NCBI GenBank assembly: GCA_947172415.1
Contig: OX359198.1
Coordinates: forward strand, 3,565,401 to 3,629,400
DNA: 64,000 nt
Reading direction: 5' to 3'
Source: Chondrosia reniformis
Lineage: Eukaryota > Porifera > Demospongiae > Chondrillida > Chondrillidae
Shown here: piece after piece, positions 22,624-59,991 of the stretch
Numbering within the stretch: the first letter of the stretch is position 1
Layout of the letters: each line of letters begins with the position of its first letter
Program-made: the position numbers and the translations under genes
Notes under the pieces: generated by a model
What the model was told of the DNA's origin: nothing
Seen by the model: the letters and a program-made list of their open reading frames with translations, nothing else
The model's database searches: none

Positions 22624-22705
22624 AGGGGCTGCCACAGGCAGCCCTTATATTGTTTTCATTTGCCGATTACGTTGTACGGCTTCATGTTACGGAAAGATAT
22701 ATACA
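22624..22705 (+). repeat. 5' terminal sequence of the Helentron
   Basis: Begins AGGGGCTGCC followed by an inverted copy (GGCAGCCC), then TTATATTGTTTTCATTTGCC and CTTCATGTTACGGAAAG. It is a near-exact reverse complement of 15022-15103. The preceding bases are a satellite T-run. Confidence 0.85.
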
Positions 22706-23480
22706 GTACAAGTTACAATATACTAAGGTAATCTAATATAAATAAATAATATAATTAATTAAATAATTCGTATGGCCCCAAGAAAGGACCTAGAAACAAA
22801 ATAGGCATATCATCATAAAGTTTAGGGTATAAAACTCATTTTAAATTAAGGGATTTTGAATTTAGGCCGAAGGACAAAGTCTGCATATAAAAGGCCATAG
22901 GACTATAGAAAACCTATGGGAAATTTATATGCAAACAATGTGTTATATTGATAAAAAATTTCAATTTGTCAGATAACTGTGAAATCAACATATATCATGG
23001 TACATGTGTATAAGAAACGTCTGACGAAGTTTTGCTTAATTAAATGAGCAAAATAATCAAGATATAATGAAGAATTCAAAGTTACGATTGCGCAAGCTGG
23101 TGATGTATTGTGATGTTTTTCTAATGTGTCACCAACACCTTCGTATGTCGCTCCGTACACACATTTTGTGAATCATGTGACGTTGCGTAAACGTCACCGA
23201 CTCGTTGCTAAAGAAGATCATCCTTCGAGAACGGCTATGACAAGTCGACGCTCTCCTACGAGAAGGAGCTACCGAACAGGCGAGTTGTAGCGAAGGTTAG
23301 ATAAAGCGTTTTTGTATACGTTCCCGTCAAGTTTGAGGCAGATTTGTTCCTATATTGATGCGAAAGACTGGATTCGTTTGGTCGACCGTATTACTTTGGT
23401 AATTTAAGCTCTGTCTTCTCTTCTTACGTTATCGGTTAATATTTTTACTTGTCCATGTGTAGGAATAAGGTGTGTTTGTT
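22706..23480. other. no recognised gene, Helentron 5' region
   Basis: AT-rich DNA with a few short frames. A 63-codon minus-strand frame (23160-22969) and a short plus frame starting MTSRRSPTRRSY near 23236 are not recognised. No signal peptide or exon that would complete the fibrocystin-like gene downstream was found. Confidence 0.4.
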
Positions 23481-23494
23481 GCGATCATTACGAG

Positions 23495-23665
23495 AATAAA
23501 GCTTTGTTGAGTGTCAGCAACATGAATTTACTAATTTCCTATTTATACTGAATTGTATTCCCACTCCTCATATATTGCTGATGCATGAAGACCTCTGGGT
23601 CGAAACGTCCAGAATTAGTAAATTCATATTGCTGACTTTCAACTAGGCTTTATTCTTATCCATGT
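23495..23665. repeat. short foldback with GGTCGAAACGTC motif
   Basis: The inverted arms GAATAAAGCTTTGTTGAG and CAGCAACATGAATTTACTAA pair with AATTAGTAAATTCATATTGC and GGCTTTATTC. Between them lies GATGCATGAAGACC with GGTCGAAACGTCC. A diverged, rearranged relative with CAGCAACATGAATTGATAAA and GAACGTTTCGACCC lies at 34690-34790, so this is a dispersed repeat family present at both ends of the cargo gene. Confidence 0.6.
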
Positions 23666-23920
23666 TAGTACGTTTTCCATGTGTACTACATACAGTAACG
23701 AAATTGCTTATAGCGAATGTCTATAAGTATAGTGAAATACTTTGTTAGCTAATTACACTCAAGTACACTACACAGTGCAAGTTACTAGCAAATATATAAA
23801 ATATTAAATTACAATCAAGTACTACACAGTACAAGTTACAAATTTAAGAGATCCAAGTGACTATGTAATATTAAAATTACAATCAAGTACTAGCTACACA
23901 GTGCAAGTTACAAATTTAAA

Positions 23921-24683
23921 GAGATCCAAGTGACCCCTAGGATAATCAGTATTTTAAACAGTACAAGACTTTAGTCACACTAGTACTGTTGCAGGCTTTG
24001 AAATCCTCAACTACTGCATAGAGAGTAGTAGTTAATACAGATTATCCAATTGCAAGGTAGAACACATGGCCTACCAATTACCTTTTCACACCTTAGTATA
24101 GACTGAAGATGATGCATCTGCATGCCATATATCAACAAAGGCTTCAGTATTAAAGGGGTCTCAGCTAATAACCACAGCAGATTTGATTTGCCTTGTGAGG
24201 GAGCTAAGAACACCGACGGTTGGTTGCATGCATTGGCATAATCAACAGGGTTAGAGACCATTTTGTAACTTGTACACAAGGGAAATCATATATGTATATA
24301 AAGGCCTTGGCCTTTTATGTCCCTTGTGTAAAAGTTACAAAATGGTCTCTAACCCTGTTGATTATGCCAATGCATGCAACCAACCGTCGGTGTTCTTAGC
24401 TCCCTCACAAGGCAAATCAAATCTGCTGTGGTTATTAGCTGAGACCCCTTTAATACTGAAGCCTTTGTTGATATATGGCATGCAGATGCATCATCTTCAG
24501 TCTATACTAAGGTGTGAAATGGTAATTGGTAGGCCATGTGTTCTACCTTGCAATTGGATGATCTGTATCAACTACTACTCTCTATGCAGTAGTTGAGGAT
24601 TTCAAAGCCTTCAACAGTACTAGTGTGACTAAAGTCTTGTACTGTTTAAAATACTGATTATCCTAGGGGTCACTTGGATCTCT
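23921..24683. mobile_element. large foldback palindrome, upstream of cargo gene
   Basis: Two nearly identical arms of about 360 bp in inverted orientation around a centre near 24300 (AAAGGCCTTGGCCTTT). The arms start GATCCAAGTGACCCCTAGGA. Because of this, the same ~60-residue frame (MVSNPVDYANACNQPSVF...) appears on both strands (24279-24007 and 24270-24596); I treat it as a by-product and not a gene. A direct ~110-bp duplication of the outer edge precedes it (23815-23935). A diverged relative sits at 35217-35942. Confidence 0.85.
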
Positions 24684-24768
24684 ATATATATATATGTATA
24701 TACAAGTATACGTGAATATCTACATATATAATGTTTAAGATTTTATTAGTGTTATTTCCTTTCTCTAG

Positions 24769-27497
24769 ATAACTCATTTACAAGTTTTGCATGGAATCCT
24801 GATACTATTGATGTTGAAATTGGAGATACTGTAATTTGGTCTTGGGATTATTCCAGTATTAATGTTGCATTTGGATTATCTCAGGTGGATCCTGGGAACA
24901 ACAGCTCAGTTCCCTATCTTGATCACTTCAGAAGTTCTCGAGTAACTTCTGGCTCGTTTGAATATCAATTTGATATCCAAGGAGTATATTATTACCAAAA
25001 TTATCCAGTAATTGGTTTTACAGATTTTTTAGGTGAAGTTAAAGTAAGACCTCGTTTATCCATTCAAGGTGATGTTTCTGTAAGTGTAGGCAGATTTTCG
25101 ACCTATCTTGACAATAGTTACTTTGAATTCGGCAACAGTGTAGATTACCTCTTCTATAACTACAATGTTAACTTTACATACAGCTTGAGAACAACACCAG
25201 AAGTGCTTTCTTTCTATGGTTCCTGGGCCAGCCCAAATGATGAAATTTTCATTTATCTTTCACTGGTCAACAGTTCAAGTAACTTTACTTTTGTTACAGC
25301 TAGTCTAGAAAGCCCAAATGAAAGTAATTATCCATGTTATATACACTTTGTCTCTGATGATATGATATCCTGCCAATTGGATATTACAGATGAGCCACCA
25401 GTGGGTGTTCCATTCCAGTTATATGTCAATGTCTTTCCTTATGGCAAGGCAATGATTGCTTCACCAGATGGACGTGATAGAATTACATTCTACCCTGAAA
25501 TATTTGAAGTATTTCCACCTTCTGTGTCAATTGTGGGAGGAGCAGTTATAAGCATATTTGGTTATGGATTTTCAGGGTACCCTTCAGTAGAAATTGGCAG
25601 TTACTCTTGCTTAATTGTTGATTTTGATTACTTAGAAATCAGATGCCTTGCCCCTGATATTTTCTCTAACCAAACTGAAACACTTTCCATCAATGTTACT
25701 GTTACTCTACCAGATGGAGAAACCTTATTAGCTGGCTGTAATGGTGACTGTAATATTACTTACTCGTATAACTCTACAGTGATATTCGATTCATTAGGAC
25801 CATCCTCTGTTCCTGGTACTCCTAATTCTACCATTATCATAAGTGGATCACTTTTGCAACAATACACAAACAGCACCAATGTTAACGAATCTACCATCAC
25901 TGTTTATTTCGCCCCATATATTTCCAGTTTCAGCTATGATGAATATACAGAATACTACCTTTTGCTACTTAATTCTAAAAACAATGAGGTTTTTAGGAAA
26001 AGGAGGTCCCTCAGTCATATAACCAGAAGTACTCTGGAGACAGACACCAATGGTGATGTCTTACCTAGTTGCAGTGAAGTAGTGTTTATGGATGGAATGT
26101 TTAGTTGTGTATTGCCTGAACTCTCTGCTGGTCAGTATGCAACACTGGTTAAACACTCTGTATATGGTTACACTGTAGCACCCAATGACACTATCCCTGA
26201 TGTCACGGTAGAACTTGTTGTAGAATCTATAACTCCCAGTACTGGTAGCACAGTAGGTGGCACTGTAATAGCTTTAAGTGGTGGAGGATTCTCTGAATCT
26301 CTTGAGGATATTTCTGTATTTCTGAATGGTTCTGTCTGTGCAGTGACAGCTGTCAGTTTTCATAGTGTCACTTGTGTAACTCCATCCCATACTGAAGGAT
26401 TGGTAAAAGGAGTAATAAGAGTGCTTGGAATACCTGCAGAATTTAGCTACAATTATTCCTCTGATGCTACCCCTTTTATTGAATCAGTCAGTCCAACAGT
26501 TGGTAACTTTGGTGACAATGTGACATTGAATGTATCCAATGTTGCTTCAGAAAGCAATTTAACTGTACATTTTGGTCAGAAAAGATGTGAGCTACTATCT
26601 GTACTTTACAGTAATGAAGCAGTTCAGATTTTCTGTGAAGTTCCTGCATACTTTGTTGGAATGCAAGCCATTAGAGTGTGGGTTAACCCATTTGGCTTTG
26701 CAGAGGGAGAAGAATACTTTGAGTATGTCTTAGTGTTAGAAGATGTCACACCGAAACAAGGAAGCTTTGCAGGTCAATCAGAGTTGGTAATAACTGGTAG
26801 AGGATTTGACCCAGTTGATGTGAGAGTTGACGTTTGTGGCCTTCCTTGTACTTCATCACTCAAACAGCCAAGTATTAGTGAGATTAGTTGTATTCTTCCA
26901 GAAATTAGCAAATATACACCTGGCTCAGGTGAAGTACTTTCTTGTAGCGTACTTGTAACTACAAGTGGGGTTAGCAAAACTCTTTATGGAGCATTCAATT
27001 ACAGTGATGAACTCACCCCTTTGATTAAAGAAGTAACTCCTACCCAAGGAGGTTCTGCTGGTGGAACATTCATAATTTTAGAAGGATATGGGTTTGAAAA
27101 TGAAAACATTACTGTTACCATTGCAGAAACTCCTTGTAACATTAGTGAACAGAATTCCAGTCACATAACATGCCGAACTGGTGCTAGTCGAAGAACTGTC
27201 ACCTCCCAGGTAGAAGTTTATGTGGAAGGCAAAGGACTGGCATATACAGCTAATCCAGTACTAACTAGGTATCGCTATGTTGACTTATGGAGTTCAGTGT
27301 ATACCTGGAATGGTTCTAGACTACCTGAATAAGGTGACTTTGTGATAGTCCCTAAAGGTCAGACACTATCACTAGATGTACACACACCCGTGTTGAAGAT
27401 TCTGCTAATTGATGGTGGTACACTTCTGTTTGATGACAATTAAAATGTTACATTGAGAGCTGAGAATATCTTAAAAGTTAATGATGGAGTATTTCAG
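24769..27497 (+). pseudogene. PKHD1L1-like exon: cupredoxin-like and IPT/TIG repeats
   Basis: After the acceptor TTTCTCTAG the frame reads FAWNPDTIDVEIGDTVIWSW and GSFEYQFDIQGVYYY, a cupredoxin-like module. Six IPT/TIG immunoglobulin-like domains follow, with typical starts: PEIFEVFPPSVSIVGG, IFDSLGPSSVPG, VESITPSTGSTVGG, ESVSPTVGNFGD, EDVTPKQGSFAG and KEVTPTQGGSAGG. A furin-type site RKRRS lies near 26000. The exon ends in the first G8 domain (VYTWNGSRLPE, then LLIDGGTLLFDD). It is open for 815 codons from 24885, then TAA at 27330 and 27423 interrupt a frame that otherwise continues perfectly to the donor at 27498; both sit where Glu would be expected (GAA to TAA). Confidence 0.82.
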
Positions 27498-27608
27498 GTA
27501 AGTTATCAGTATATTATACATACTCTTTTTTACCTTAGGCATTTATTATTTATATTGTACTCCTCATACATCAATAATCTATTTTCCATTTTTGGGTTTG
27601 TTATTTAG

Positions 27609-30213
27609 GTTGGAACTGAACATGAACCTTTCCAACATCATGCAGAGATAGTTTTATATGGTCATGTTTTGTCTACAGAGGTGCCCTTGCTTGGAGCTAA
27701 GACATTAGCTGTTCGCCAAGGTACTTTGGATCTTCATGGCAAGCCTTTAAATGTCACTTGGACCAGACTGTCCCAAACTGCTCAGCCGGGAGATACCACA
27801 CTTTATCTCCAGGAACCTGTTGACTGGGAGATAGGAGGGAGAGTCGTCATAGCAGCCACAAATTTCAGTCAAAGAGAAAATGAGGAAGCATACATCACAG
27901 GTATAGACAAGTCAAGAACTGCTATTACAATAGAAAGAATTCCAAGGCCTTATGAATCACAATCCCTAGGCCTATTGTATCAACATATTTCTGTCAAAGA
28001 GACTTATGATGGCCAAGTTGTAGATATGAGTGCTGAAGTTGGTTATCTGACAAGAAATGTAATAGTCAGGGGTAACCTAAATAAAGAATGGCTAGAGGTG
28101 GTTGAAGCCTGTCCACAGGAATTCAATGTGGGCATGTTTGAAACTCAGACTTGCTTTAGAGGTAGATTTGGAGCTGAAATCGAAACAGATCAGTTTGGAT
28201 CTCAGATAATGCTTCATGCTAGGGAGCAGGATCAACATCATGGAACTGGGAGAATAGAATATGTTGAGGTGACACATGCAGGACAAGCATTTAGACTAGG
28301 AAGATATCCGATCCATTTCCATCTGAATGGAAATGTGTCTGGTTCATATGTAAGAGGTTGCGGTATTCATCATACCTTCAACAGAGCTGTCACAATTCAT
28401 GGTGTCAACTACCTTCTGGTAGAGAAGAATGTGGCCTTTAATGTTCTGGGTCATGCCTATTTCTTGGAGGATGGCATTGAAATTGGAAATGTAATACAAG
28501 ATAATCTTGGCATATTTGTGCGTGCATCAAGTAGCTTGCTAAATGTTGATATCACACCAGCTACCTTCTGGGTCGTCAATCCCAACAACACTGTTAGAAG
28601 GAACGCAGCTGCTGGAGGCACACATTTTGGTTTCTGGTATAGATTGGAGCAGCATCCTACTGGCCCCTCTGCAACCAGAACTGTTTGCCCAAGACACATT
28701 CCAGTACAAGAATTCTCTGGTAACACAGCACATTCCTTTGGTTGGTACGGTATTTGGGTATTTCCTTCCTATCATCCTCGAGTTGGAGGTTCTTGCTCTT
28801 CCAGTGCTCCTTTTGAAAAATCTGTTTTCTCTGACTTTGTTGCCTGGAGAAACACACGTGGGGTGGAATTTACAGAAGTGGGATCATTGCAATTGACTAA
28901 TTCTATACTGGTGGATAATCTATTAGCTGGTGTGGAAGTTGTTGAACTCAGCCAGACATGCTGGGGTGACGAGGGTCCTTTAATTAAGAATGTAACAATT
29001 GTTGGTCATTCACAAGGAATAGATGAAACGGAAAATGATTTTTGCACAGAGTCTGGAATTAAAACACCAAAATCTGACTATCTTACAGTTTCTGATATGA
29101 AATTTTTCAATTTCAACAGAAGTCGTTGCCATGCTATAACAGCCTGTGCACATTGTAAGATATTTCAAGGTGGCATTAGAACCAACTTTGAAGGTTTAGA
29201 ATTTATTAACTCACCTGAAAAGGTAGACTGGAAATGGGAGCATGAACATGTTTATTTCGATTTAGATGGCTCACTGACAGGTCGACATGCAAAATCCTCT
29301 CTAACACCTTACCATGCAGCGTTAGACCCAATTGAATGCCAAAGGATTATAACCAGTTCCACAAGAAATGATAGACCTCAAAGTGCAGTCTGTAATCCTT
29401 CAATTAAACTACAGAGAGTAGCTATTGACAGTTTACTGCCACCATCACTTGATTTCAGATATCTCCTTATCACCAACAGCAAAGGAGAAGGTACATCAAG
29501 AGTACCCTGGGCACTTAAAAGGTTGACTGGTATCCCAGGACTTATGGCAGTTCTTCCTCTATGGAGTCATTTTAATCTCCAATGGCAGAACACCAGCCTG
29601 ACAAATATATCATACATTGCTAGATTCAACAAAATGAACTCAACTGATTATCTTTGGTTTAATCATAAATTTCCCTTCAAGATAGACAGACTACTTATTA
29701 ATGGTGTAATGAGTGAGCCCAAGGAATCTATACCTGATGCACAGGACGGTGAGAATGGGGACTGGTACTATAGTGATGTGCTAAAATCTGCTTACTATTT
29801 AATTGAAGGACATGGGGAGGCTTCCTGTTCAGAGGGAGTAGACAACACTATTAGATTTACTACATACAAGTGTGAATATTTAGATTGTATTCCTCCACCT
29901 CCACCTCCTGATCCTACTCTTCCTCCCCCACCAAATGCTACATTTTACTGGTCTGACAATGAGACATGGCCTGGAAGACTGTTACCACAAGAGGGTGAAG
30001 CTGTTTTCATCAATTGTAGTCAGTTTGTTATCTTAGATACTTCTATTCCAAGGCTGAAATCAATTGAAATTTGCGGTGTGTTGAAACTTAATGACTCTAT
30101 GTCCCATATAATTGAAACTGAAGTAATATTCATCAAAGGAGGCAAGCTTATTATTGGTGATGAGACAGAACCATTCCAAAACAATGTTACATTTATCATG
30201 AATGGAAATACCA
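27609..30213 (+). pseudogene. PKHD1L1-like exon: rest of G8-1, beta-helix, start of G8-2
   Basis: Begins VGTEHEPFQHHAEIVLYGH, completing the first G8 domain, then a right-handed parallel beta-helix region: HHGTGRIEYVEVTHAGQAF, YPIHFHLNGNVSGSYVRGC, then GHAYFLEDGIEIGNVIQDNL. This is the long conserved core shared with TMEM2/CEMIP-type proteins. A proline-rich linker near 29890-29935 (PPPPPPDPTLPPPP) precedes the second G8 domain (FYWSDNETWPGRLLPQEGEA). Open for its full 2.6 kb. The frame ends at donor CCA|GTAAGT and continues in phase after a 78-nt intron. Confidence 0.85.
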
Positions 30214-30291
30214 GTAAGTTATAACACTATATGACCCCAACTGTGAAATGTTTCAATGATTTATGCACTGTTCTCCTTTTCAATTCCTTAG

Positions 30292-33076
30292 CAACTCCTG
30301 AATTTCCAGTACCGCTGAGGGCCCCAGCAGTTGGCAGCAAGGCAATTGGCGTATTTGGAGAGCTATCCATGTATGCAAATACACATGCAGTTACATGGAC
30401 ATTCCTAGCTAAGTCTGTATGTCCAAATGACACTACCCTGACTTTGATTGAGCCTGTTACTTGGGTAGAAGGTGAAGAAATTGTGATTAGCTCTACTTCT
30501 TATGAGCCACTTGAAGCAGAAACATTTACTATTTCCGATGTCAGTAGTGACGGCCTTACCATATCCATTGATGGAAAATTCAAATATGAACATTTATCCC
30601 AAACTGGTGTGATTGATACCTCTCCATATGGAATCCGTTCTGAAGTTGGAGTCCTAAGTCGTAAAATTAAAGTTATAAATGGAAATCCAAATTTGAGTGA
30701 CAATGAAGCTTTTGGTTGTAGACTGCTAGTTGGTCACATGACTGAAAATGGTCTCTCCTATGTTGGTAGAGCTCAAATCCATGGTGTAGAGTTTGACGGC
30801 TGTGGACAAAAGGATTATACCTTTGTTAAGGACCCAAGGTTTGCATTAGCCTTTTTGAATATTGGTGATGCTGGTAATGCTTCATACGTACGTAAGTCAT
30901 CCTTTCATGATGGGTATAACATTGGAGTTGGATCAAGTGGAACAGATTATCTACAACTTGAAGAAAATGTAATTCACAATCAAGTTGGGCACTCATTTCA
31001 GCTGGCTGGAAAGAGATTTGTTTTGAAGAAGAACTTGGCTGTAGTTGCCTTATTTCCTGGATTATATAGAGGAGCTGATGAACCTCAAAATTCTGACTAC
31101 ACTGCCAATTATGAGCTATTTAATTCTGAAGATCTGACTTTAATAGCAAATTCTGCAGCTGGTGGCCAAAGAGTGGGATTCAGAACAAGAGGAGAACCCT
31201 GTAATGATGACAAATCTTTAGAATCATGGTATGGGAATATTGCTCATTCTACCCTCCACGGAGTGTTTACTCTGTATGGAGACGGGCATCCTTCAGGATG
31301 TGGCCTCTATAGAGAATTTACTGTATATTCCTGTCACCAATACGGACTCATGGCTTATAGTAGAGCCAGTGTTATGGTGAAGAGAAGTATCTTTGTCAAT
31401 AATAAAGCAGCTATTCATACTAATGTGATTGGACCAGCTTCTTTAACACATGTAATTGATGACAAGAATGTCATACTTGATCATGTCTTGATCTCATCGT
31501 ACTTTCCATTGAAAGATGGTCTCTGCAATTATGATGTTTGTGAGAGTGATAAGAAGGTACCAGTTGTAACTAGACATCCAAAATCATTTCGTGGAATATC
31601 CACAACATCAGGAAGACATGTTGGTATTATCATGTCAGCCTTTACTTCATCAAGTGGACTCTTTCCTAAAAGTGCTGTGCATACTATTACTTCTTATCCA
31701 GCAATTAATGGGTCATCATTGTATAGAGATGTACTTTTTAATGACTTCAACACTACATGTGGGAGCTGTGATATAGCATTAATGACAAACCCTTTTGCAG
31801 ATGCTGCCATCCATCCAGTAACCACAGAAGGAATTAATTGGCAAAATAGTGATACAAATCAGTGCAGTTTATATATGCATGAGCCACCACTGGCTCATGT
31901 TAATCCTTCAGACTGTGTTGATATGGACTGTGATGGTCATAAACATGCTCTTATCAAAGACTTGGATGGAAGTTTTACAGAAAGTGGTTTTAGGAGAACT
32001 ATCACAGCAGTGGCTCAATTTGAATGGAATGGAGATAGAAAAAGAGGATTTGGAGATTTCCGCATACCAAAAACCATGCTTACGAATCCAGATGGCTCAC
32101 GGATCCCAACTGATAGCATTTACCCTTACCAAGGAATAGTAAGAGGTTATAATGATTAAGACGACTGTTTGTATAATAAAAATTGGAGAGCATATGAGTG
32201 CAGAGACCTTGATCATGTGTTGCTTCTGTTGGAGAGCCTTGATCCTGACACAGAAGTTTGAAGACTTTCACCCATTGGTATTGGTGGCTCCGGTTTTATA
32301 GACCTACTGAATGGGCCACAAGATCATGGATGGTGCGGAGGATACACCTGTCAAGAAAGAATCTCTACATTCTATGGGATAGTGGCCACTGGACTCAATT
32401 ATTCAATAGCATTAACCAGCACTAATCCTCAGCAGATGCGGATCCTCATGCTAGATGCTGAACCTAAGTCATTTATTATCATCAATATAATCTACTTTAC
32501 ATCCCAGAGACTAGATGTCTACATTAATGGACATTTTAATCCAGCAACAGGTCAGTATGAGAATGGTCAATATATATCTCCAAACTACAATGAAGCCGTC
32601 TCAATGGATGATACTCATGGAAGCAATTCCTACAATAGACCACAGAAGGCTCTTACTGTTATCCTGAGAGGATCAAGAGAAATTGTCATCAAAATTGCCC
32701 CAGTTATCCAGCTCTCCCTCCACATGGCTGCAGTTACTGTGGATGAATTCTTTGAAACCAACTTGATCCAAAATTTGGTTCTATTATTTAATATTCCTAA
32801 GCAAAAGATAAGAATTGTACAAGCCATAGCTGAAGACTCGCAAATTAGTAGAAAGAAACGGGAAAGCACAACAGTAGTAGACATTGAAATTGGGGATGAA
32901 GGAATGTCTGATAATGCTACTAATGTAAGTGGTAATGCAAGTACAAGTGATGGGTTTACATATACTCAACTAAGAAATCTTACAACAGAAATAGTCAACA
33001 AAGTACAGACAGGTGAGCTAGCTAGTGGCTTGAATGTCACTATACTATCTGCAGCTGTACAAGAACCGACTATCAG
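30292..33076 (+). pseudogene. PKHD1L1-like exon: second G8 and beta-helix
   Basis: Continues the second G8 (APAVGSKAIGVFGELSMYAN) and a second parallel beta-helix (GRAQIHGVEFDGCGQKDY, NQVGHSFQLAGKRFVLKKN). Downstream is the highly conserved block LLNGPQDHGWCGGYTC near 32306-32353. A second furin-like site, SRKKRE, lies near 32850. TAA at 32157 and TGA at 32260 interrupt one continuous frame; the sequence between them (DDCLYNKNWRAYECRD, SLDPDTEV) still reads as family sequence, so the stops are recent or are errors. Confidence 0.82.
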
Positions 33077-33120
33077 GTATACTTTATGGTATCCTATCCA
33101 CCAACAGCTGCTTTCTCTAG

Positions 33121-33604
33121 TGATTATCCAGATGACATAACTATTGCAGAGAGACCATGGAAACTAAGAGTAAGGACACAACCTACTTCCAGTTATCCTG
33201 GCCTTCCTCAAAGTGATAATGTTACAGTTGAATTAGTGGAGCGTACTTCTGGTGCACTCGTCACTAACCATGGTTGGAGAGGTAGAACTTGGAATATTGA
33301 GGCTACTTTCTTGTTAGATGGACAACCTGTTAACAATCTTACAGAAAAGTTGATGGATGGAATTGCATACTTTTCAAATATCACCCTCATTACAGTGGGT
33401 GCTTATGTAATTAGGTTTACAGCTTTAACTGTCCCTGAAACAACCTCATTTGAAGAATCATTTCCATCTTCCATTGAAAGTCTTTCCTTTGAAATCAAAG
33501 CTGTAGCTGTGGCTACACTTCAGGTCATTTTCGAAGCTGACTTTGGAGTAGTTGTTGTTGGAATGGAAAATGAGTTTATATCAGCTTTTAAGGAATACTT
33601 AGAG
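33121..33604 (+). pseudogene. PKHD1L1-like exon: extracellular stalk
   Basis: Reads SDYPDDITIAERPWKLRV through EEDFG-type stalk sequence to EYLE before the donor GAG|GTAAGA. I infer a 44-nt intron (33077-33120, AG|GTATAC...TTTCTCTAG|T) between it and the previous exon because this keeps phase. The alternative is an exon read-through with a one-base slip, since the frame upstream of 33121 (YPPTAAFSSDYPDD) is also open and protein-like. Confidence 0.7.
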
Positions 33605-33884
33605 GTAAGAGTTATGTAGCATTTAGCCTTTTAAGAAGATAGATGTATATGCATTTGTATTATGCATTATGTACATATACGCGTATATACATTATGGCTT
33701 TCCCTATATACGTACATATAAGTAACGTATATACATATGTATATATATAGGAAAACAATAATCCATTCAATTCTATTCAAAAGGGTACATATATTTACTC
33801 AATGCACATGTATGTACGTATGTTGACAAATATACGTATATAGGTATTAATCTAAAACATTGTAATTCTTTATCATATCTATAG

Positions 33885-36500: not shown

Positions 36501-36518
36501 AGTCTAGACGTTCTAATG

Positions 36519-38640: not shown

Positions 38641-38679
38641 AGCGCATGCACATGTACGTATATATTTGCTAAAGGCTGG

Positions 38680-44876: not shown

Positions 44877-44879
44877 AAC

Positions 44880-47333: not shown

Positions 47334-47339
47334 CTATAA

Positions 47340-48700: not shown

Positions 48701-48702
48701 TC

Positions 48703-49316
48703 ACGGTGCCTCCAAATACAGACTTTTCTGTTAGTCCTATAGTCTTACGGCTCATGACTTCCCTCTACTAAAGTCTTACAGTACATTTAGGCAGAGGGGT
48801 TCTACATTTGTCTAAAGTTGTTCGAGTGTAGCTTAGCAGAGGCATTCTAAGTCTGTCTAAAGTTGTACGAGTGTACCTTAGCAGAGGGGTTCTAAGTCTG
48901 TCTAAAATTATTCGAGTGTAGCTTAGCAGAGGGGTTCTACATTTGTCTAAAGTTATTCGAGTGTAGCTTAGCAGAGGCGTTCTAAGCGTGTCTAAAGTTG
49001 TTCGTGTGTAGCTTAGCAGAGGGGTTCTAAGTGTGTCCATCGAGTTGTTCGAGTGTAACTTGACAGAGGCGTTCTAAGTCTGTCTTAAGTTGTTCGAGTG
49101 TAGCTTAGCAGAGGGATTCTAAGTCTGTTTAAAGTTGTTCGAGTGTAGCTTAGCAGAGGGGTTCTAAGTGTGTCTAAAATTGTACGAGTGTAGCTTAGCA
49201 GAGGGGTTCTACATTTGTCTAAAGTTACGGTGCCTCCAAATATACCCTTTTCTGTTAGTCTTATAGTCTTACAGCTCATGACTTCCCTCTACTAAAGTCT
49301 TACAGTACATTTAGGC
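48703..49316. repeat. 45-bp minisatellite block 3 between direct repeats
   Basis: About ten 45-bp units (48792-49226), bracketed by two direct copies of a ~90-bp sequence (48703-48792 and 49227-49316: ACGGTGCCTCCAAATA, TTTTCTGTTAGTC, CTCATGACTTCCCTCTACTA, ACATTTAGGC). The minisatellite thus interrupts a duplicated unique sequence. This is consistent with one duplication event that captured or expanded the array. Confidence 0.85.
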
Positions 49317-51108
49317 TGTAAGTTTACTTCTAACTTAAATTAGATTCCCGTGTTTACAAACAGGACAGTATTTGTTTATAAACTGTTTATAATAAACACT
49401 GTAATGTTTGTATCATCTATTGATAATCATACTAATCAGTAATAAGAAGCGTAGGGCAAAGACATCGACGGCGCCTGCCAAATGAATACACTAGTCTTTT
49501 GCGCTCTGAAGGCCTTCTTTTGATTTTTAGCCATATTACATGATATCCTTAAATATTTCCGGCGCCGTACGTAATCATATTGTCTTTGTTTAAGAAAAAT
49601 TACATCTATGCGTAGTAATACCTTTACTATAACGTTTAATATACTTTTTCAAATTATCTTATCAATAAACAAGGGCAAATATTACAATGATAGTGATAAA
49701 GATGATGGTACTGTAAGGATTAGACAGTGACGTTTAATCATAGATTATGTATACTACGTAACGTTACGTAGTATACATAATTAATCTATGGTTTAATATA
49801 GGCACAATTCCTTTGGTGACGTTCCCTTGCTATGCTAAGGACGGCTGGTACCAAAGTTTTTAGCTACGTGAATGAAAAGAAAAGCTTACCCCTTTGTGTG
49901 AAACTCTTTGGATATGATTTAGGGATGAACAATCACCAGTGTCCACCTCCCAAAACCTTAAAGTACCATCATCTGAACCTACAGAAATGTATACTTAGCT
50001 GTCGGTCTGTGAATGCTGACACCAATTTTCAGCTGCACATCTATCCATTTGAAAGAGTTGTATTTCTTCATTCGGATTCCCTTCCTTTTCCTCCTACTTT
50101 CTTAAGCTGCTAAGATTCATCTTAAATTATTACTTAAATCCGACTTCTACTTAGGACGACTTCTACTTAGGAAAAGAACAATGACTATATTGGTATCCGC
50201 CAACGTGCGGCTGTCACCATGTTTGTTGAAATTTCGTTTTTGGGTACAGTGTTTCCGGGACGTATGATGAGCTAAAGCGCTTTTATAAATGACTTGATAC
50301 GTCAAATAGCCTTTGAAGAGGGATACTATAAAGGATTTCATATGATTCTCGTATATCAATATAGTGTAACGATATAGAACGATCGAGGTTGTTATACGCT
50401 TCCAGTTGTAGAGAATAAGCTATAGATCGTTAGCAATGACGCCAAGCTTCTCAAACTGTCGATCGAAAGGCTACCTTGCTAGGTATTGTATTATTATTGA
50501 TATATACAATGAAGCGGAAGCGCGTAAATCGTTTATGTACCTGTAGTAGTAGCACCACAAAGTTTTTAAATGAATGCAGCATATCCCTAATAACAGATAC
50601 ATGTACTAAACGGACTCTAGTAGTTAATAGTAAGAGATAGTAAAGTAGGCCATCCTTTTAGTACACTTAGGAAAAACGCTTTAGATGGGTAACTTGTCCA
50701 GCAACTTTGTGTGTCTTTATCTTAGAACATGGGGTCTCCTTATATTAATCTATTTAAGTAGAGTTACTCTCTGAACCCATTGTTACAATGTATATATCTC
50801 TCATTTGAATAATAAGAGAAATATATGCTTTTTAAATTATAGTAATGCAAAATGCGGTTCCAGAGAATGTACGCTGTCAAACAGAAACAATAAAGTGTGT
50901 CTGAATGCAACTATCTTCACACCTCCAAAACAAAAATTTGGAAGCATAACAACCCTTACTCACATCACGTTATGCCGTTTCCAATCAATTTAATAGTCTT
51001 ATACACACCTATATAGTCTTATTATTCAATACTTAATTGCCTTCTGAAAACTTACTGACACCTTCCATATTTATTGGAATGTAGTCATTGACATACTTTA
51101 TTTTACCG
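49317..51108. other. no recognised gene; 36-nt perfect palindrome
   Basis: At 49745-49780 lies a perfect 36-nt palindrome with half-site TTATGTATACTACGTAAC, extended by imperfect TCATAGA/TCTATGG arms. A 93-codon plus frame (49832-50113) and a 70-codon minus frame (50359-50147) are not recognised. Nothing else is supported. Confidence 0.45.
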
Positions 51109-51682
51109 CAGTGGAACATGTATAAGACAGTCAGCCTTGGGACCTGACCAACTGGCTCTTATACAGAGGTGGCCTGCTTATAGAGTTTGCATCAAATATA
51201 TTTACAATATATAATAATATGGCGAAACAGTATAATTTCGAAGGTGGGGATGATCAACTCCTTCGCCTTCAAAATTGCCTGCACCTGCGTATGTCCACAC
51301 TTAAAAGTGTCAGCGATCTTCCTCGTTCCAATGCCAAACAGTTTCATTTTTCTTCAGGAAGGGTGAGAGCATCGCCCTCTGTGAAGTGGCTGGGGGGATG
51401 GTTAACCGTGGCCTAGAAAATTCGTGCATGTACTGATTTTACGGATGCCTGGCCTACATAGAGAGGCTCAAGAACCTCTTTCCGTAGCAAAGAACTTTAC
51501 TGACAAGTGTATTATTTTGTTTGTACTCGAGCAGTGGCCGTTTAACGTAATAGAGAGTGACCGTTACTACAGGTTAATAATGGACACAAATTAATATGTA
51601 TTCATTCGGGACTTCCCCTATAGTTACCGGCTTATACTAGGATACCGCCTAACACAGGTAACTGCTGATACAGGTTCCACAG
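51109..51682 (-). mobile_element. pogo/Tigger-like remnant with TIRs
   Basis: The left end CAGTGGAACATGTATAAGAC pairs with the reverse complement of the right end, CTGTGGAACCTGTATCAGC. TA follows the right end. On the minus strand (51347-51228) a frame reads GIGTRKIADTFKCGHTQVQA then ILKAKELI, the helix-turn-helix of CENP-B/pogo transposases. The rest of the transposase is gone (574 bp total). Confidence 0.7.
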
Positions 51683-51972
51683 TATATATATATATACATA
51701 CATTTATAGCTTTTCCAAGGTATATAAATGAGTGAAAAACTGAATTTAGTTGCTTATGAAACTGCTTTTATGGTATGCACCGTGAAACCAGAACTGGCTG
51801 GCTGACAAATTAATTTTATTTACAAATTGCATGCTATGTTATTACTACATCCTTTTTATCCCATGCAGCAGGAATTATCCCAAAAAACAGAACATGAAAG
51901 AAACAGTAAGAAAAGTTGCACAGAACACAAGCCAACTAAGCCATCATTGATACCGTAAAGTGACAATATTGC

Positions 51973-52182
51973 ATGTATGTGTTTGTTTTATCTATAATTA
52001 TGCAAGGCAATGTCTGGGCGCATAAATTTCTATTGCATTATTTAATTACAACATTTATAAAGCTCGACCACACCAACTTCAAGTACGTCACAATGAATTC
52101 CTTTTCTAGCGTTGATAGTAAATGTGTTCGTAGAAGAATCGACGATAGTGGCAATAATGTTGAAGCAGCCATTTTTAAGTAA
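51973..52182 (+). other. possible first exon upstream of Helentron protein
   Basis: The frame from the internal Met (52093, MNSFSSVDSKCVRRRIDD) runs to a strong donor (TTTTTAA|GTAAGT at 52181). If spliced to an AG at 52525 (GCTATAG|ATG), it continues through CLKNEQYTVCMHSKTPFAYI into the plus frame crossing the 21-bp repeats, but that frame is not the main one of the Helentron protein. It is therefore unproven, and the exon may belong to nothing. Confidence 0.25.
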
Positions 52183-52642
52183 GTCGAAATCATCACTTCC
52201 ATTTACTCTATAATATAGTTATTATTAGTCCAGAATCGTGCCGTCATGTGATTCTAGAAGGCTGTGAGTGGGGCAGCTGCTTAGAGGTGATGGGTGGGGC
52301 AGCTAGCTGCTCAAGCGGTGGTGCTATATAATCTTGATCGACAAGATCACATGCATAAAAAACGCTAATGTGTTTAGAGGCCAAATTTTTAATAATCACA
52401 GTAATTTTTTCACATGCATGCAATTGTACCTTTACGGTAAGTTGCTCTATTCTGTGTGACTGGGTTTTGTTGATAATCATTTCTATATATATTAGCTGCC
52501 TTTCTATTTTTTATTCCAGGCTATAGATGTCTGAAAAATGAGCAATATACGGTATGTATGCATTCTAAGACTCCATTTGCATACATCTCAAATGAACAGA
52601 CTGTCATGATAGGCACTATCTACAAACATAATTACACTCAGT

Positions 52643-54055
52643 ATGTCAATTCTTTGCTCTGTTTCTGGAGTCAAAGTAAATCACCCTGTGGCTGGGGTCG
52701 ATTACCCTGTGGCTGGGGTTGCTCACCCTGTGGCTGGGGTCAATTACCCTGTGGCTGGGGTTGCTCACCCTGTGGCTGGGGTCAATTACCCTGTGGCTGG
52801 GGTTACTCACCCTGTGACTGGGGTTCTTCACCCTGTAGCTGGGATCCATTACCCAGTAGCTGGGGTTGCTCACCCAATGCACAAGCGTTTAAAGGCAGAA
52901 AGTGCTGAGCAACGTGAGGCCAGAGTTGCTACACTTTCTGAGAATCAAAGGAAGCGTTTAAAGTCAGAAAGTGCTGAGCAACGTGAGGCCAGAGTTGCTA
53001 CACTTTCTGAGAATCAAAGGAAGCATTTAAAGTCAGAAAGTATTGAAGAACGTCAAGCACGGCTTGCTACTCTCTCTGTAAATCGTAAGCAAAGGCTACT
53101 GTCAGAAACAGATGAAAATCTGGAGTCAAGACTAAGTGGTATGAAGGAATGGAAAAAATCAAGAAGCGTAAAAGAATCTGAACAGGAGCGTACTCTAAGA
53201 TTGAAGAGAGAAAAGGATCAAGCAAGATTAAGAATGCAGGCATTTAGAAAGCGAAAACAGGAATTGTTTACAAACCATGAGTCATTAGATGAATACCATG
53301 GAGTGCAAAAAACTGAAAATGTACAATGTGCCAGTGTTACTTCACAGGTAAATTTGGCTGTTGGAGATATAGATATTCTATCAAAAGAAGGACTACAAGG
53401 GGAACAAATATTGCTTTGCAACCATGCAGTTTTGTATGGTGCTGCTAAGCAAGATTGCACCTACCAAATGTCTGAAGAGAAAGACATGGAAGAGGATGCA
53501 GAAGTTACTGCTATTACAGTTTCAGAATCTGTTGTTACTGTACCAACACTTCAGATTGCATTGCCATCTAATCAAGGCAAAAAATTGAGAAATAATTTGC
53601 AAAAGTTTGAAAAAGTAATTCTGGAAGGGCCTACCCATAAATGTTATTCATGTGGAAAGTTGTGCTATAGACAGTTGGGTGCGACATTTAGCTTGGATGT
53701 TGCAGTTGAGTTACTTTCTACGATAAATGAATCAATTCAAGATAATATTAAGACTGTTTGGTTTTGTAACAGGTGTAAGAATTTGTTACAAAGAAAAAAA
53801 ATTCCAGCAGTGTCTCAGTTTAATAAAATGAAAGTGGTAGACATCCCTTCAGTGTTAATGGGATTAAATACATTGGAGCAACGTTTGATTTCAAAGGCCA
53901 CTGTTTTCATGAAAATGGTGATATTACCAAGGGGTGGACAAAGGGCTGTCCGAGGGCAAGTGATTAACTTTCCTTCAAATGTTGACTCTGTCATTTCGGA
54001 ACTCCCCCGTCTACCTAATGGGGAAGATATTGTTTACATTCAGCAGCCACAGTAA
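52643..54055 (+). pseudogene. Helentron protein N-terminal part: repeats and DUF6570-like region
   Basis: Starts MSILCSVSGVKV, then nine or ten 7-residue repeats (HPVAGVN/YPVAGVA) encoded by a 21-bp tandem repeat (52683-52880), then 23-residue repeats (KRLKSESAEQREARVATLSE) typical of the basic N-termini of Helitron proteins. After a charged coil there is a Cys pair region (CYSCGKLCYRQ ... FCNRCKN) and a block like DUF6570: FNKMKVVDIPSVLMGLNTLE, then VILPRGGQRAVRGQVINFPS. The frame ends at a TAA (54053), but the same frame continues beyond it (PESEDKSNG...) into the Rep part, so one stop separates the two. 470 codons are visible. Confidence 0.75.
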
Positions 54056-54121
54056 CCAGAAAGTGAAGACAAAAGTAATGGGCCTGATAAAGCTTACCAT
54101 TGCTGTCGGTACTCTAGAGTT

Positions 54122-56062
54122 ATGCAAGCATTGCAATGGCTAAAGCAGCATAACCCCTTGTATAGAGATGTCTCCATCAGCAACATATCAGAAGGTATGT
54201 TTGTTGATGGTGAAGAAGTAACCGAAGGTGAGAACAGCCGACAAGAAGAAAATCTTGAAATGGATGAAACTGGAATTGTCAGGTTGGATGCTCTCCAGCC
54301 TAATGTAGTTGCTGTTGAATTGGTACAAGAACGTAAATCAATTGAACACCAGGTTCATGAGTTACAAAGAATAACAGCTACACCATTGAGCGTATTTGAG
54401 GATCGGGATGATCTTGAAGGAATGGCTTTTCCAACTTTATATCCTGATGGTGAAAATAGCTTTGGTAAAATCAGAGAGACCAAGGTTTCACCTCTACAGT
54501 ATTTCCAAGCGAGATTGCTGAGTGCTGATACAAGATGGGCCTGTCATCCTTCATACATCTTTTGGGCATGCAACATTGTGGAAGCCCTGAAGTTGCAGAG
54601 CAGCATTTCCATTGCTATGAGAATGCGGTCTTTCAGAGTAAGCCACTTTGATAATAAGACTGACAATGAAACTGATGATAAGCGCTTACTCACAGCTGGA
54701 TTGCTTAGAGGACCATTGGATGACAATCCCGAATTGCGTGAAAACTGTTACAGTTTCATGAAAGACATTCGTGGTACGCAAGCTTATTGGAACTCAGTGA
54801 AGATCCAATTATTTGTTATGTTTCGCACTCTTGGTCCTCCCACATTCTTTATTACACTGAGTGCTGATGATAATAACTGGGTAGACTTGATGATAGTTCT
54901 AATCAAAAGTCGGGGTCAAAATCTCTCAGAGGAAGAAGCAGCCAACCTGTCATCCAGTGAAAAAAGAAACCTGATGAGGTCCAATCCGGTGGTTACAGCT
55001 AGGCATTTTGCCCATTGTTTTCAGTCCTTTGTCAAGGAGGTCATTAAAGGATCTGAACAACCCATTGGCGAGGTGGTTGATTACTTTTAGAGAATTGAAT
55101 TTCAGTTGAGGGGTTCCCCACATATCCATTCTATGTGGTGGATAAAGGATACTCCCAACCTAGACACAACAGTTGGAAGGCAGATTGCCCCACAGTACAT
55201 TGATCGGTATATATCTGTGAACATACCAAATGAAGGTAGCAAGGATGAACAACTGCATTCTTTGGTAATGCACGTGCAGCAACACCATCATACAGTCACT
55301 TGCAAAAAGGCAACAAACAGACATCCAAATGTGAAGGATTGTCGATTTGACTTTCCTCAGCCTCTCTCAGAGGTTACAAGGCTGAAAAACAATGACGATC
55401 CTGGAAACAAGTCCAGGTTTTATGTTCTGAAACGATCAGAAGGGGAGGAAAACTGCAATCCATACAATACACACCTTCTAAAGGCTTGGAAGGCTAACAT
55501 GGATATACAGTTGATTGGGTCTGTTTATGGGACAGCAGCATATGTTTGTTCATATATGTGCAAATCGGAAAGTGAGGAGGTTAGGAAAGCAATCCGGGAT
55601 GCACTGGAAAGCTTGCCTCCTCGGGCTACAGCAAGAAAGTGCCTCTCAAAGGTTGGCAACACCATGTTGACACACCGTGAATTGAGTGCCCAGGAGGCAG
55701 CATATCGATTATGTCATTTGCCTCTCAAGGAAAACTCCAGAAAAGTGGTTTTTGTTAACACCACCAAGCCAGAGAAGAGAACACGCTTGCTAAAATGTAA
55801 AGCTGAATTGCTTCAATTGGAGGATGATTCCACTGACATTTTTGCTCCTGGCATCTTTGATAGATATGCCTCACGACCAGACTCACAACACTTTGCCAAA
55901 ATGACGTTGGCTCACTTTGCCGTCTGGTATTATGTGGATGGATGTGATGGTTCCGTTGGAAGTGGATCAGGGCAGAGCCTCGTAGCCAACTGCAAAACAA
56001 CTTGGGATGGGTGCGCCTTCGAAGGAAGCAAGCTTGCCTTTGAATACCAGTACAGACAGTAG
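54122..56062 (+). pseudogene. Helitron-type Rep (Helitron_like_N) nuclease region
   Basis: Two pieces in one frame (54122-55090, 55106-56062) separated by a single TAG at 55088, where Glu would fit. The first has AFPTLYPDGENSFG, PLQYFQARLL and FITLSADDNNWVDL. The second has the HUH motif RGSPHIHS, HTVTCKKAT, and the catalytic-tyrosine region AAYVCSYMCKSE, with two Tyr four residues apart. In this family the protein nicks DNA for rolling-circle transfer. A stop and a frame change near 56062 separate it from the helicase, whose frame picks up at HGDDYYYSLLLLYIPWR. Confidence 0.82.
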
Positions 56063-56091
56063 AAAGTCATGGTGATGACTATTACTACAGT

Positions 56092-58400
56092 TTGCTGCTT
56101 CTTTACATTCCTTGGAGGAAGGAACCGGTGGATCTCCTACTACACCACTCTTCAGCAATGGAGGCTTTCATTGCAAGGGAGGGAGAAATGGTTGTTCTTA
56201 ATGCAGAGAACCACACTTTTGCAGACGAGGTGCAGAGGGCTGTTGTACAATTGCAAGCCTTGAAAAACGATGCTTATCAGGATGCAGTTGCACCTATGAC
56301 ACTCCAAGTTCATCGAGAGGATGCTGCCAAACCTCCTGTAGAGGCTGAGGGTGGATTGATGAACCCTGAGAATTTTGCTGATCCTCATTACTTTCAGGAT
56401 GACACTGAGGGTGCAGGAAATTTAGATGAAGGGATAATACATGATGACGACAATGCCATTGGGGCAATGATTAGATGCACCCTTCCTGATGAGTTCTTTC
56501 GGCAACTAGTTGCAAACCTCAATACACAACAACGGGTTCCATTTGACATAGTTGTTCAGTACACTCGAGAATTACATAAGTACCAAATGAAGCTACGCCC
56601 AAAAGCTCCAGAAGCTTTTCATCTGTTTGTGACAGGTGGAGCGGGCACTGGTAAATCACACGTAATTAGAGCAATTAAAGAGCATTTGGAGCGCTCGGTC
56701 TCCAGTGGGCCAGACAAGCATGCATGCATCTTGATGGCACCTCCAGGGGTTGCAGCTTTTAACGTTGGAGGCCTAACCATCCACAGAGCCCTGAGACTGC
56801 AAGTAGAGCATGGCAAGACGGCCCATCAGTTACAACTGCATGCTTTAGCATTGCATGATTTGAGAAAATTGTGGCAAGGGGTGCACACTATCATAATTGA
56901 TGAAATTAGTATGGTTTCATACCAGATATTGAAGTCTGTACACAGCCGTCTGTGTGAAATTTATGGCAATGATGAAATATTTGGTGGTTTGAATGTGATA
57001 GCTGTGGGAGACTTATACCAGCTGTCGCCTGTGAATGGGATCCATGTTTTCAGTAAGTCTTCACACCTTTGGAGAGATTTCTACAAGGTCATTGAATTAG
57101 AAGTTAATATGCGGCAGCAAAAAGATGCTACCTTTTCAGATATCCTTAATCGTCTCAGAATAGGCAACCACACGGTTGAAGATGTTAAAGTTTTGCACAC
57201 ACGATTGCTTTCCAGTGGATCTGTGGATTTACTGGCTCCTCCATTTGAGACTGCCCTCAGATTGTATCCTCGTTCAGTGGATGTAGAAGGATATAATGAA
57301 ACCCAGATTACATGTTTGGCAAAAGACAATCAACTGTATAGAATTGATGCAGAACATGCAATTCTACAGAGTCGAGGACAATTCTATGCCCATATTAATT
57401 ACAATGAGGTTCCTGAACGCCTCATTCCACAGGATGACAAAGATTGTGCTGCATTACCTCGTCAATTGAAGTTAGCAATTGGTGCCAGAGTGCTGCTTCG
57501 CCGTAACATCAACTGTGGTGATGGCCTTGTGAATGGTGCCAGAGGTATAATTGTGGGATTCAAATGGCCAGGAAAAACAAATAATCAGAGAAAACCTGGT
57601 GAAATGCCTACAGAGGTGTATGTCAAATTCTTTGATCCAAATGTGGGAAGCCTCTCAAGGTGACGATTGCCTCTGGTGATCAGGAAGTTGTGCCGATTGC
57701 AGCAATTTCAGCATGCTTCTATGGAAAGGAAGGCACACTCTTGCAGAGAACACAGATTCCTTTGATTCTCTGCTGGGCAGCTACTGTGCATAAAGTGCAA
57801 GGTTTGTCACTTGATGCAGCAGTCATGGATCTTGGTAAGGACGTTTTTGAACCTGGTATGGCCTATGTAGCTCTCAGTCGCGTGCGTACTCTAAATGGAG
57901 TGGCCCTACTGAACTTTGAGCCACAAAAGATGACAGCAAACAAGAGAGTTCATGAGGAAATGGCAAGGCTGCGACAACAGTCTACTTGTGGTAGTGTATT
58001 GCAAAGTGACGGGCAGACATCAGATCTATTGGTTCAGAACTGCAAACGTCCTGACAAATCAAACAGTGAAAACAGGGCCAATCCTTTGGTGGAGGACAAA
58101 AGTGCTGCATTGCATAGTGAGAAGCAGACATTGTCTACTAAAAATAGGGATGATGAGTTACAAGGCAAGCAGAAGCCTATAGTAGTCCACATGGAAGTCA
58201 GTCAATCTGTACACTTAAATCCGATTTTTAATGTTGATGCACAGCTGGTGTCCTCACTGAAAACGGCACTAGAAGTGATAGTAAATGAAAATAGTCCAAC
58301 TGTTGAGTCGATAACAAAATGGGCAAACTCTCACAGCCATGAACTAGACTGTATTTTAAAAGTGATAAATATACCTTGCAGGGCTACATTTAGCAACTGT
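56092..58400 (+). pseudogene. PIF1-family helicase domain of the Helentron
   Basis: Frame 56092-57663 carries Walker A GGAGTGKS (residues 182-189), APPGVAAFNVGGLTIHRAL, Walker B IIIDEISMV, NVIAVGDLYQLSPV and the start of the C-terminal core (ARVLLRRNINCGDGLVNGAR). A one-base change near 57640-57660 moves the rest into frame 57660-58775, with WAATVHKVQGLSLDAAVMDL and YVALSRVRTLNGVALLNF. These are the ordered motifs of PIF1-type 5'-3' helicases. It unwinds DNA during rolling-circle transposition. About 100 low-complexity residues link it to an OTU domain. Confidence 0.87.
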
Positions 58401-59221
58401 CATCTAGTAGATATTTTGGAAAAAGAAAAGATCTTTGCAGCTCTTACTTCTCAATATGTCCCAGTGTGCACTAAAGGAGATGGAAATTGCATGTATAACA
58501 TACTTTCTGGTACTGAGCAGTATATGTGGCACTTGAGGTTGTTGACTGCTTATAGTATAATTGTACATCGAGAACGCATGATAAAAGTCATACAACCAGT
58601 TGCAGGAATACATATACCGCCAGAGGAACGAGAGCCTCTTGCAGTTGCTAAGGCAGCAGAGAGACAATGGTTGGAAATCCTTTGCAGTTCAATCCACGAT
58701 AAAGCATGGGGTGACCAATTTCATTTGTATGCCCTAGCTCTGATTTTAAAAGGCCTATCTGGTTGTATGGCGTAATGTGCAACAGAAGTCTCTATCATGA
58801 AGGGGAAAGGCTCCAACCAATTAAGCATGACATTACACAAGCTGAATTAAAAGATCTTTTTAAAATGAGAGATAAGAGATTAAATAACAATTATTGCTAT
58901 TGTCCTGACTCAGTCCTGGAAGATAAAGTGCCACTTTTAGGTTTTTTGGATTCCTCTCATTTCACTGCCTTACTTCCAGTAGAATCTGCAAAGATTTCAA
59001 CAGATTTTGCTCCATTTGCCACCTTTTTGTCACAGTGTGGTCCTGAAGAATGATTAAAAGGAGCAGTGCAGTGGCAATGGGCCACTGCATTGGGATGTGA
59101 TTAAAGACAACCGTGGTGGTGATATATACATTCATATTAATTGTCCAGCAATACAGGGTGTTGATTTAAATGCATGCCTGTTAGTGATTGTGCATATTTT
59201 GTTTGCATGTCATAAGAGGTA
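58401..59221 (+). pseudogene. OTU-like cysteine protease domain and tail of Helentron protein
   Basis: KGDGNCMYNILSG (58471-58509) is the catalytic Asp/Cys block of OTU domains. WLEILCSSIHDKAWGDQFHL and, after a one-base change near 58747-58750 in an A-run, WLYGVMCNRSLY continue it. The His motif is in DSSHFTALLP (58950-58979). Fusion of OTU to Rep/helicase is known in Helentrons and some other Helitrons. After a stop at 59051 another frame stays open (GPLHWDVIKDNRGGDIYIHI, NCPAIQGVDL) to about 59221, so the original protein was probably longer. Confidence 0.75.
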
Positions 59222-59931
59222 ATTTGTTTTGTATACTTTTTAATTGTATGCATGTAGATGTGTTCACATACGTTTCTATTTCTATTGCAAAGAAGGATAA
59301 GGAGGAGTAAAGTCACTCGTAAGCCAATTATTAACCATTTTTTAAATTGCAATGAATATTTAATCATTTCAGGGAGGTTTTATTTAATTGCAGGTTATCC
59401 AGTTTTATAGCCACTTAAATTTAAGTCGGCACAATAAGGAAAATTTAGATCAAGTTACGCTTAGTGATTCTGGAGATGTCATAGAAAAGAAGCATTTTAT
59501 TTATTGTCACATGGTAAGTAGATGCTTTACACTATTGTTGGTTTGCACACATCATACATTCAGTGTTAAAATCTCTTTCTTTATACAGGGGAGACTAATT
59601 CTTGCAAACCCAAATTTGATAAACTGGACAAGTCATTTTGGAACCAGTCTGCTACAAATTTCTACATTGTTATAGTCACTTACATTAACTTAACTCGGAA
59701 CTTCAAGGTTCCTGACAAATTTATTTTTCCCACTAACTTTTGGTAACACTCTTTTAGAAGCCTCTGTTTATTAGTTCCATTTACTGTATTCATTTCTAAG
59801 TATTTCATATCATATCATAGATATATATGATAATAGAAGTTGCAAAAATATAATACAAATTCTACAATTTACATCTTGAGAATATTTTAAGCTTAGAATA
59901 TGACAGTATACAAAATCATCCAAAAGCCGCC
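59222..59931. other. Helentron 3' region, possible exon-like pieces
   Basis: Two stretches with splice-like borders are seen: 59394-59513 (after TTTAATTGCAG, before ATG|GTAAGT) and 59590-59675 (after TTTATACAG, ending TAG). They are in phase with each other but are not recognised and may be chance. The rest is AT-rich with no feature. Confidence 0.3.
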
Positions 59932-59991
59932 AAGTAGATCGAGTGCGTGGGAGGCGGCAGCCCCACGAGTTTTTTTAACTCGACCTACTTG
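59932..59991 (+). repeat. 3' terminal structure of the Helentron
   Basis: The outer arms CAAGTAGATCGAGT and ACTCGACCTACTTG pair in 13 of 14 positions. They enclose GTGGGAGGCGGCAGCCCCAC and a small hairpin CGAGTT/AACTCG. The last G is followed by a satellite T-tract. The same arrangement closes the 415-bp element at its 14689 end. GGCAGCCCC mirrors the 5'-terminal GGGGCTGCC. Confidence 0.85.

Follow-up and report, generated by a model that had tools for sequence, protein, structure and literature searches.

Within a 64,000-nucleotide stretch of the genome of the sponge Chondrosia reniformis (hereafter the window; C10:3565401-3629400), a 37-kb block at positions 22624 to 59991 interrupts a satellite array. 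This block, described in an initial annotation as a giant, cargo-bearing Helentron, is on the evidence of its sequence a composite and not one coherent element. The history that we regard as probable is that a Helitron2-type rolling-circle element, about 17-18 kb long in its own right, was inserted between the Ts of a 250-bp satellite and was then enlarged by accretion. The element's own sequence in the window consists of 22624-22703, 36216-38154 and 44885-59991, about 17.1 kb, and between these parts lie another 20 kb, made up of two related repetitive elements (designated NA-A and NA-B), a stretch of a host fibrocystin-like gene and a nested retroelement. The searches reported here covered 117,379,552 bases in 15 contigs; excerpts of the assembly's publication give 117.37 Mb, in 14 chromosomes and a mitochondrion (PMC12181767).

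The size of the element can be judged from its relatives. The initial annotation had proposed a genome search for other copies with both ends, and such copies were found: pairing of ends by position and strand returned spans of 18.3, 18.3, 18.6, 18.7, 26.7, 31.7, 32.0 and 37.4 kb, the last being the window copy, so that four relatives measure 18.3-18.7 kb and three are enlarged as well. The first of two copies on C4 was read end to end, and a neighbour on C10 nearly so. The C4 copy (C4:4079853-4098157; 18,305 bases), which has satellite on both sides, is colinear with the window backbone (36216..38154 and, up to the 3' end, 44885..59991, both on the plus strand), with an identity of mostly 96-99% that falls to 90-92% in two tandem-repeat stretches, and it contains neither the gene piece nor NA-A, NA-B or the retroelement. 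Because this copy is 18.3 kb long and the window backbone about 17.1 kb, giant size is not supported as a property of the element. The enlarged relatives are located on C14 (26.7 kb, known from its span only), on C10 (31.7 kb) and on C6 (32.0 kb). In the C10 neighbour a different insert, of 25.6 kb (C10:3672500-3698100), lies 11 bases from the site of the window's retroelement, while the C6 copy has an NA element in the same (TA)n at its 5' end; since these two copies carry other inserts, copies of this family do grow. The 25.6-kb insert has inverted ends and is flanked by CTTCGTG on both sides. A possible further relative of 50.9 kb with an open transposase frame (C13:3001949-3052805) may represent two elements and was not counted.

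The insertion into the satellite is real in the assembly. The left monomer of the ~250-bp satellite (22364..22623, plus strand) is interrupted in its own T-tract, with flank sequence ...GCTTTTT followed from 22624 by the element as A-GGGGCTGCC, that is, after five Ts; at the other side, the element terminus ...CCTACTTG at 59991 is followed by TTTTC and by the right monomer (59992..60251, plus strand) in the subtype and register of the left one. When 260 bases from each side were joined, they matched 21623-22139 in a single alignment (519/520 bases, 92.5%) and 20394-20911 likewise in a single alignment (91.6%), the next best by score reaching 87.2%, from which it follows that both flanks belong to one monomer of one subtype. 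In 88 of 114 joined-flank matches the alignment crosses the join with 60 or more bases to either side, and the T-tract of the joined flanks exceeds those of the sister copies by three Ts. Thus the monomer cut at 22623/22624 and resuming at 59991/59992, as first annotated, was borne out; the sister copies from which an empty site had been predicted (20642-20700 and 21871-21930) both lie inside the two best alignments; and the flanks, for which differing satellite subtypes under full alignment had been named as contrary evidence, proved to be a single subtype. Separately, the satellite at 20394-22620 is organised in higher-order units of about 1.23 kb in addition to the 250-bp monomer, with 91% identity between successive units.

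Both termini have the form described for this group of transposons. The 5' end (22624..22703, plus strand) comprises the A-GGGGCTGCC hairpin and the first 80 bases, near-identical in the C4 and C10-neighbour copies, and the 3' end (59931..59991, plus strand) forms a nested stem with outer arms AAGTAG...CTACTT and inner arms CGTGGG...CCCACG. An asymmetric terminal inverted repeat joins GGGGCTGCC at 22625 to GGCAGCCCC at 59956 (second arm 59956-59964), words with four and three copies, respectively, in the whole window, and this repeat recurs in the sibling copies. The distance from the repeat to the 3' end is 27 bases and to the 5' end 1 base, against 38-60 and 2-4 for a strict Helentron; for Helitron2-type elements of Fusarium, excerpts of one study give about 20-40 bases from the 3' end (PMC5148889). 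As single strands, the 5' and 3' ends fold with z-scores of -4.34 and -4.04, and none of 200 shuffles was as good. The ends are also repeated as ends: at least 108 of the last 121 bases were covered in 18 of the 40 matches scored (from 557 candidates), and for the first 277 bases the match began within the first three bases in 21 of the 45 matches listed, the window being included in both counts. Among the 17 distinct 5' ends with the full hairpin motif, to which the count of insertion contexts applies, TTTTTA precedes 13 and ATTA-type sequence precedes 4, and TTT follows the 3' end at all of the eight best loci. These results, together with the empty site, uphold the inverted repeat, the 3' stem and the insertion between Ts that the initial annotation had listed.

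The remains of a transposase gene (52613..59053, plus strand) comprise STPR repeats, DUF6570, Helitron_like_N (Rep), a PIF1 helicase and an OTU protease. In the window, Helitron_like_N and PIF1 were matched at 54.1-57.7 kb, and OTU below threshold at 57.7-58.8 kb. Relative to a 1770-amino-acid open frame at C4, the Rep-helicase frame of the window has two in-frame stops and three frameshifts; the last 1500 amino acids of the C4 frame contain Helitron_like_N, REP_ORF2-G2P, PIF1 and OTU, the last of these (PF02338) above its cut-off. The Rep-PIF1-OTU genes reported near the 3' end are therefore present, but as remains of a broken reading frame. No endonuclease was matched at E<=0.1 in the last 1500 amino acids of the C4 frame, no apurinic/apyrimidinic (AP) endonuclease was present in the nine further frames scanned (a part of all frames), and among the 125 matches listed in a whole-genome search with PF03372 none fell in the window element or in the two C4 copies, PF14529 not having been searched genome-wide.

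This bears on classification. In the excerpted sources, Helentrons take their name from a C-terminal AP endonuclease (PMC4067079), while Helitron2 has asymmetric repeats, hairpins at both ends, TTTT|T targets and no endonuclease (PMC4067079, PMC5148889). Since no AP endonuclease was found, Helitron2 is preferred here over a strict Helentron, and by its ends, target and domain content the element would be assigned as Helitron2-type with an OTU domain. The name Helentron can stand for a rolling-circle element of the Helitron2/Helentron group in a satellite T-tract, but not in the strict sense, given that AP endonuclease was not found in what was scanned. As far as the excerpts describe them, the Helitron2 elements of Chlamydomonas and Fusarium (FoHeli) share with the present element the asymmetric repeat, the hairpins at both ends, the TTTT|T target and Rep with helicase without endonuclease (PMC4067079, PMC5148889), and differ from it in the OTU protease and in the enlargement by nested inserts that are seen here. 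Helentrons, HINE and DINE-1, in the parts of PMC4067079 consulted, are alike in their inverted repeats near both ends, 3' stem, T insertion, OTU gene and short non-autonomous partners, whereas no AP-endonuclease domain was found in the sponge element.

Next to the 5' end, NA-A (22704..24689, plus strand) is a (TA)n-flanked, partly palindromic repetitive element situated in (TA)n. Its last 690 bases occur at 97-99% identity in at least 39 other places, and since it is matched on both strands, its palindrome can be put at about 776 bases. Three copies of NA-A read elsewhere have no rolling-circle 5' end in front. The family to which it belongs is (TA)n-flanked, palindromic and high in copy number, with CAGTACAAG-type ends. 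Its relative NA-B (35214..36215, minus strand, thus opposite to NA-A) is truncated at 36215, and past it the backbone resumes about 160 bases inside its own start; this start at 36216 was unique to the window among the 40 candidates scored, of 1220. Further downstream lies a putative nested retroelement with broken frames (38155..44884, minus strand) that neither the C4 copy nor the C10 neighbour carries; its type is suggested by weak matches to reverse transcriptase (E 1.4e-6) and tyrosine recombinase (E 0.001), both below Pfam cut-offs. Sequence at its end recurs at five other genomic sites with 97-99% identity. The junction is seen only in the window, and 15 other places match the backbone as far as the insertion point and then stop. 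A tRNA search of the window found none.

Between NA-A and NA-B, a 10.5-kb piece (24690..35213, plus strand) with TIG, G8 and CEMIP beta-helix matches is a partial copy of a host fibrocystin/PKHD1L1-like gene and matches C13:4297567-4308395 at about 98.8% identity. TIG repeats with G8 domains and a CEMIP beta-helix make up what we take to be the architecture of fibrocystin-L/PKHD1L1. At C13 the gene extends upstream past the captured boundary in five more blocks that are colinear with a paralogue on C7 (67-74% identity), and because this colinearity continues past the boundary, the native locus is C13, and the upstream exons are absent from the window copy. For the same reason, the reverse direction, with the window as donor and C13 as recipient, was rejected. 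Besides the window, the genome matches to the gene piece are C13, C7 and a more distant gene on C5, matched in separate pieces; with this short list, and with C13 continuing upstream colinear with C7, the possibility of fibrocystin-like genes being transposon genes that the element had spread was likewise discarded. No second gene-bearing order was found in the genome. Across 10,404 aligned bases the window piece differs from C13 by 117 substitutions, and it has a 421-base deletion at 33067/33068, a one-base deletion causing a frameshift near 34097 and premature stops at 27330, 27441, 32157 and 32259, where the frames are open at C13 and aligned with the C7 paralogue. The piece is accordingly a pseudogene fragment, and neither the gene nor the transposase of the window copy can make a full protein. 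The description of the block as cargo-bearing holds insofar as host gene DNA lies inside it; in a functional sense it is unsupported, because the piece, besides being 5'-truncated, is disrupted at six or more points.

The events leading to this arrangement may be pictured as follows. As in its family, Rep would nick and strand-transfer the 5' end, the PIF1 helicase would unwind the strand and the 3' hairpin would stop it. After insertion, the copy would have decayed and grown: NA-A, a (TA)n-inserting element, would have ended up in the (TA)n beside the 5' end, the 10.5-kb stretch from C13 would have been placed beside it with NA-B on its other side, and the retroelement would have inserted into the backbone; the succession of these events is conjectural. 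At the donor locus both boundaries of the gene piece lie within (TA)n, although (TA)>=5 makes up 0.49% of a 20-kb region there; this argues for arrival by (TA)n-guided copying or within an NA-A/NA-B composite and against a dedicated cargo mechanism. Most likely, then, the gene arrived either through a (TA)n-guided copy event, such as filler-DNA repair of a break, or as the central part of such a composite, and both fit alike. Capture by end bypass, that is, read-through at the 3' end, was rejected, since the gene is situated on the 5' side, with NA-A before and NA-B after it.

One set of counts weighs against accretion after the satellite insertion. An attempt to date the gene insertion as younger than the copy found no significant difference in private substitutions of the window lineage: 35/4552 for the backbone (compared with seven siblings), 45/6954 for the gene (compared with C13 and C7) and 7/684 for NA-A (compared with three copies), with Fisher p values of 0.49 for gene against backbone and 0.49 for NA-A against backbone. 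As these rates do not differ significantly, the gene may be as old as the copy and was perhaps aboard at its last jump, and the time order of the satellite insertion and the nested steps is deduced and not directly dated. Over its full length NA-A shows 17/1975 private changes (compared with two other copies) and C13 itself 27/6954; polymorphism of the donor haplotype could inflate the private count of the gene.

A jump of the whole unit would fit these counts. According to this alternative, which we hold to be rather doubtful, the gene stretch, NA-A and NA-B had been acquired before the last jump and moved into the satellite as a rolling-circle unit of at least 30 kb, with only the retroelement arriving later. 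The block is a clean single insertion with both ends, the private substitutions of gene and NA-A are not significantly different from those of the backbone, and the 5' end runs into NA-A sequence at several other sites, so that this joint has moved or recurred; maize Helitrons, moreover, reach 39 kb in the excerpted report (PMC6431247). What speaks against such a jump is that the gene-bearing order has no second copy, that the backbone start at 36216 occurs only in the window among the candidates scored, and that the roughly 160 missing backbone bases suggest a local deletion. It is in our judgement similarly improbable that the (TA)n beside the 5' end serves as a docking site at which rolling-circle elements gain modules, combined with a jump of at least 30 kb that included the gene and two (TA)n-inserting elements.

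A cut-and-paste composite, in which NA-A and NA-B had each occupied one of two (TA)n tracts in the C13 gene and took the intervening stretch with them into the (TA)n of the element, appears a little less unlikely, if still tentative. The two, which lie in opposite orientation, are members of a single (TA)n-flanked family whose ends are of the CAGTACAAG/CAGTGCAAG type, the gene stretch is bounded by (TA)n on both sides, C6 has its NA element in the same 5' (TA)n, and the right end of NA-A, GGATCTC followed by TA, recurs at three other places and so may be a natural end. Yet in the window NA-B lacks its outer end, which would leave the composite incomplete; at the reference C13 locus those tracts contain no NA-A or NA-B; most of the NA-A copies listed continue differently beyond the end seen in the window; and no transposase was identified for the NA family. 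As a mechanism for the arrival of the gene, this route is compatible both with accretion and with a whole-unit jump. Finally, an assembly artefact joining unrelated repeats seems very improbable. Assemblers can fail in satellite arrays, the block is for the most part repetitive, and the evidence is at the level of the assembly; but the satellite register is kept, the nested boundaries coincide with the ends of independently placed elements, and the gene stretch, with 1.1% divergence from C13 and the 421-bp deletion, is therefore not a misplaced duplicate. Accretion onto an element of 17-18 kb thus remains the history that we prefer.

Gene capture by related transposons has been described at other scales. 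Captures in the Helentron group for which the excerpts of PMC4067079 give a size measure 87 bp and 1688 bp, compared with 10.5 kb here. The gene-bearing Helitrons of maize, up to 39 kb as excerpted from PMC6431247, resemble the sponge block as large rolling-circle blocks with host gene DNA, whereas here one long stretch of one gene lies beside (TA)n elements, and the block is single-copy and its transposase broken. No report of this element in a sponge, or of fibrocystin inside a Helitron, was found among the matches listed in the open-licence PMC literature.

Other features of the window surround the block. A 13-bp minisatellite (TACATACAACTAG) extends over several kb at 3-1863 and 3385-7492, and copies of the element at C4:3284020-3302314 and on C14 are bordered by related sequence. 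Another insertion interrupts the satellite array at 11609-15477; it has inverted ends of the CAGTG.TCCAC type adjoining TA and a 389-amino-acid frame (12261-13430) with a weak winged-helix match. It contains a non-autonomous rolling-circle element of about 420 bases on the minus strand (15103 to ~14690), both ends of which belong to the same family as the element in the 37-kb block.

At the level of the genome, the 87 helicase matches of the family that were listed, some of them pieces of one gene, are spread across 14 chromosomes and all fall at 0.31-0.66 of chromosome length, 82 of them in the central third, which suggests pericentromeric accumulation. Across the 4.6-kb Rep region the divergence between the two C4 copies is 0.02%, which points to recent activity, and open transposase frames of 1752 and 1770 amino acids occur, so that the family has relatives that look active. 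In this setting, what appeared to be a giant cargo transposon becomes a readable history, in a family whose copies measure 18 to 37 kb and in which nested insertion explains the cases that were read. It also serves as a warning that a transposing unit need not be as long as the span between two intact ends. With a long single stretch of a host gene inside a rolling-circle element and its donor locus known, mechanisms of arrival can be tested at base level; and a jump of at least 30 kb with the gene aboard, if true, would itself be testable, since the family has active-looking relatives.

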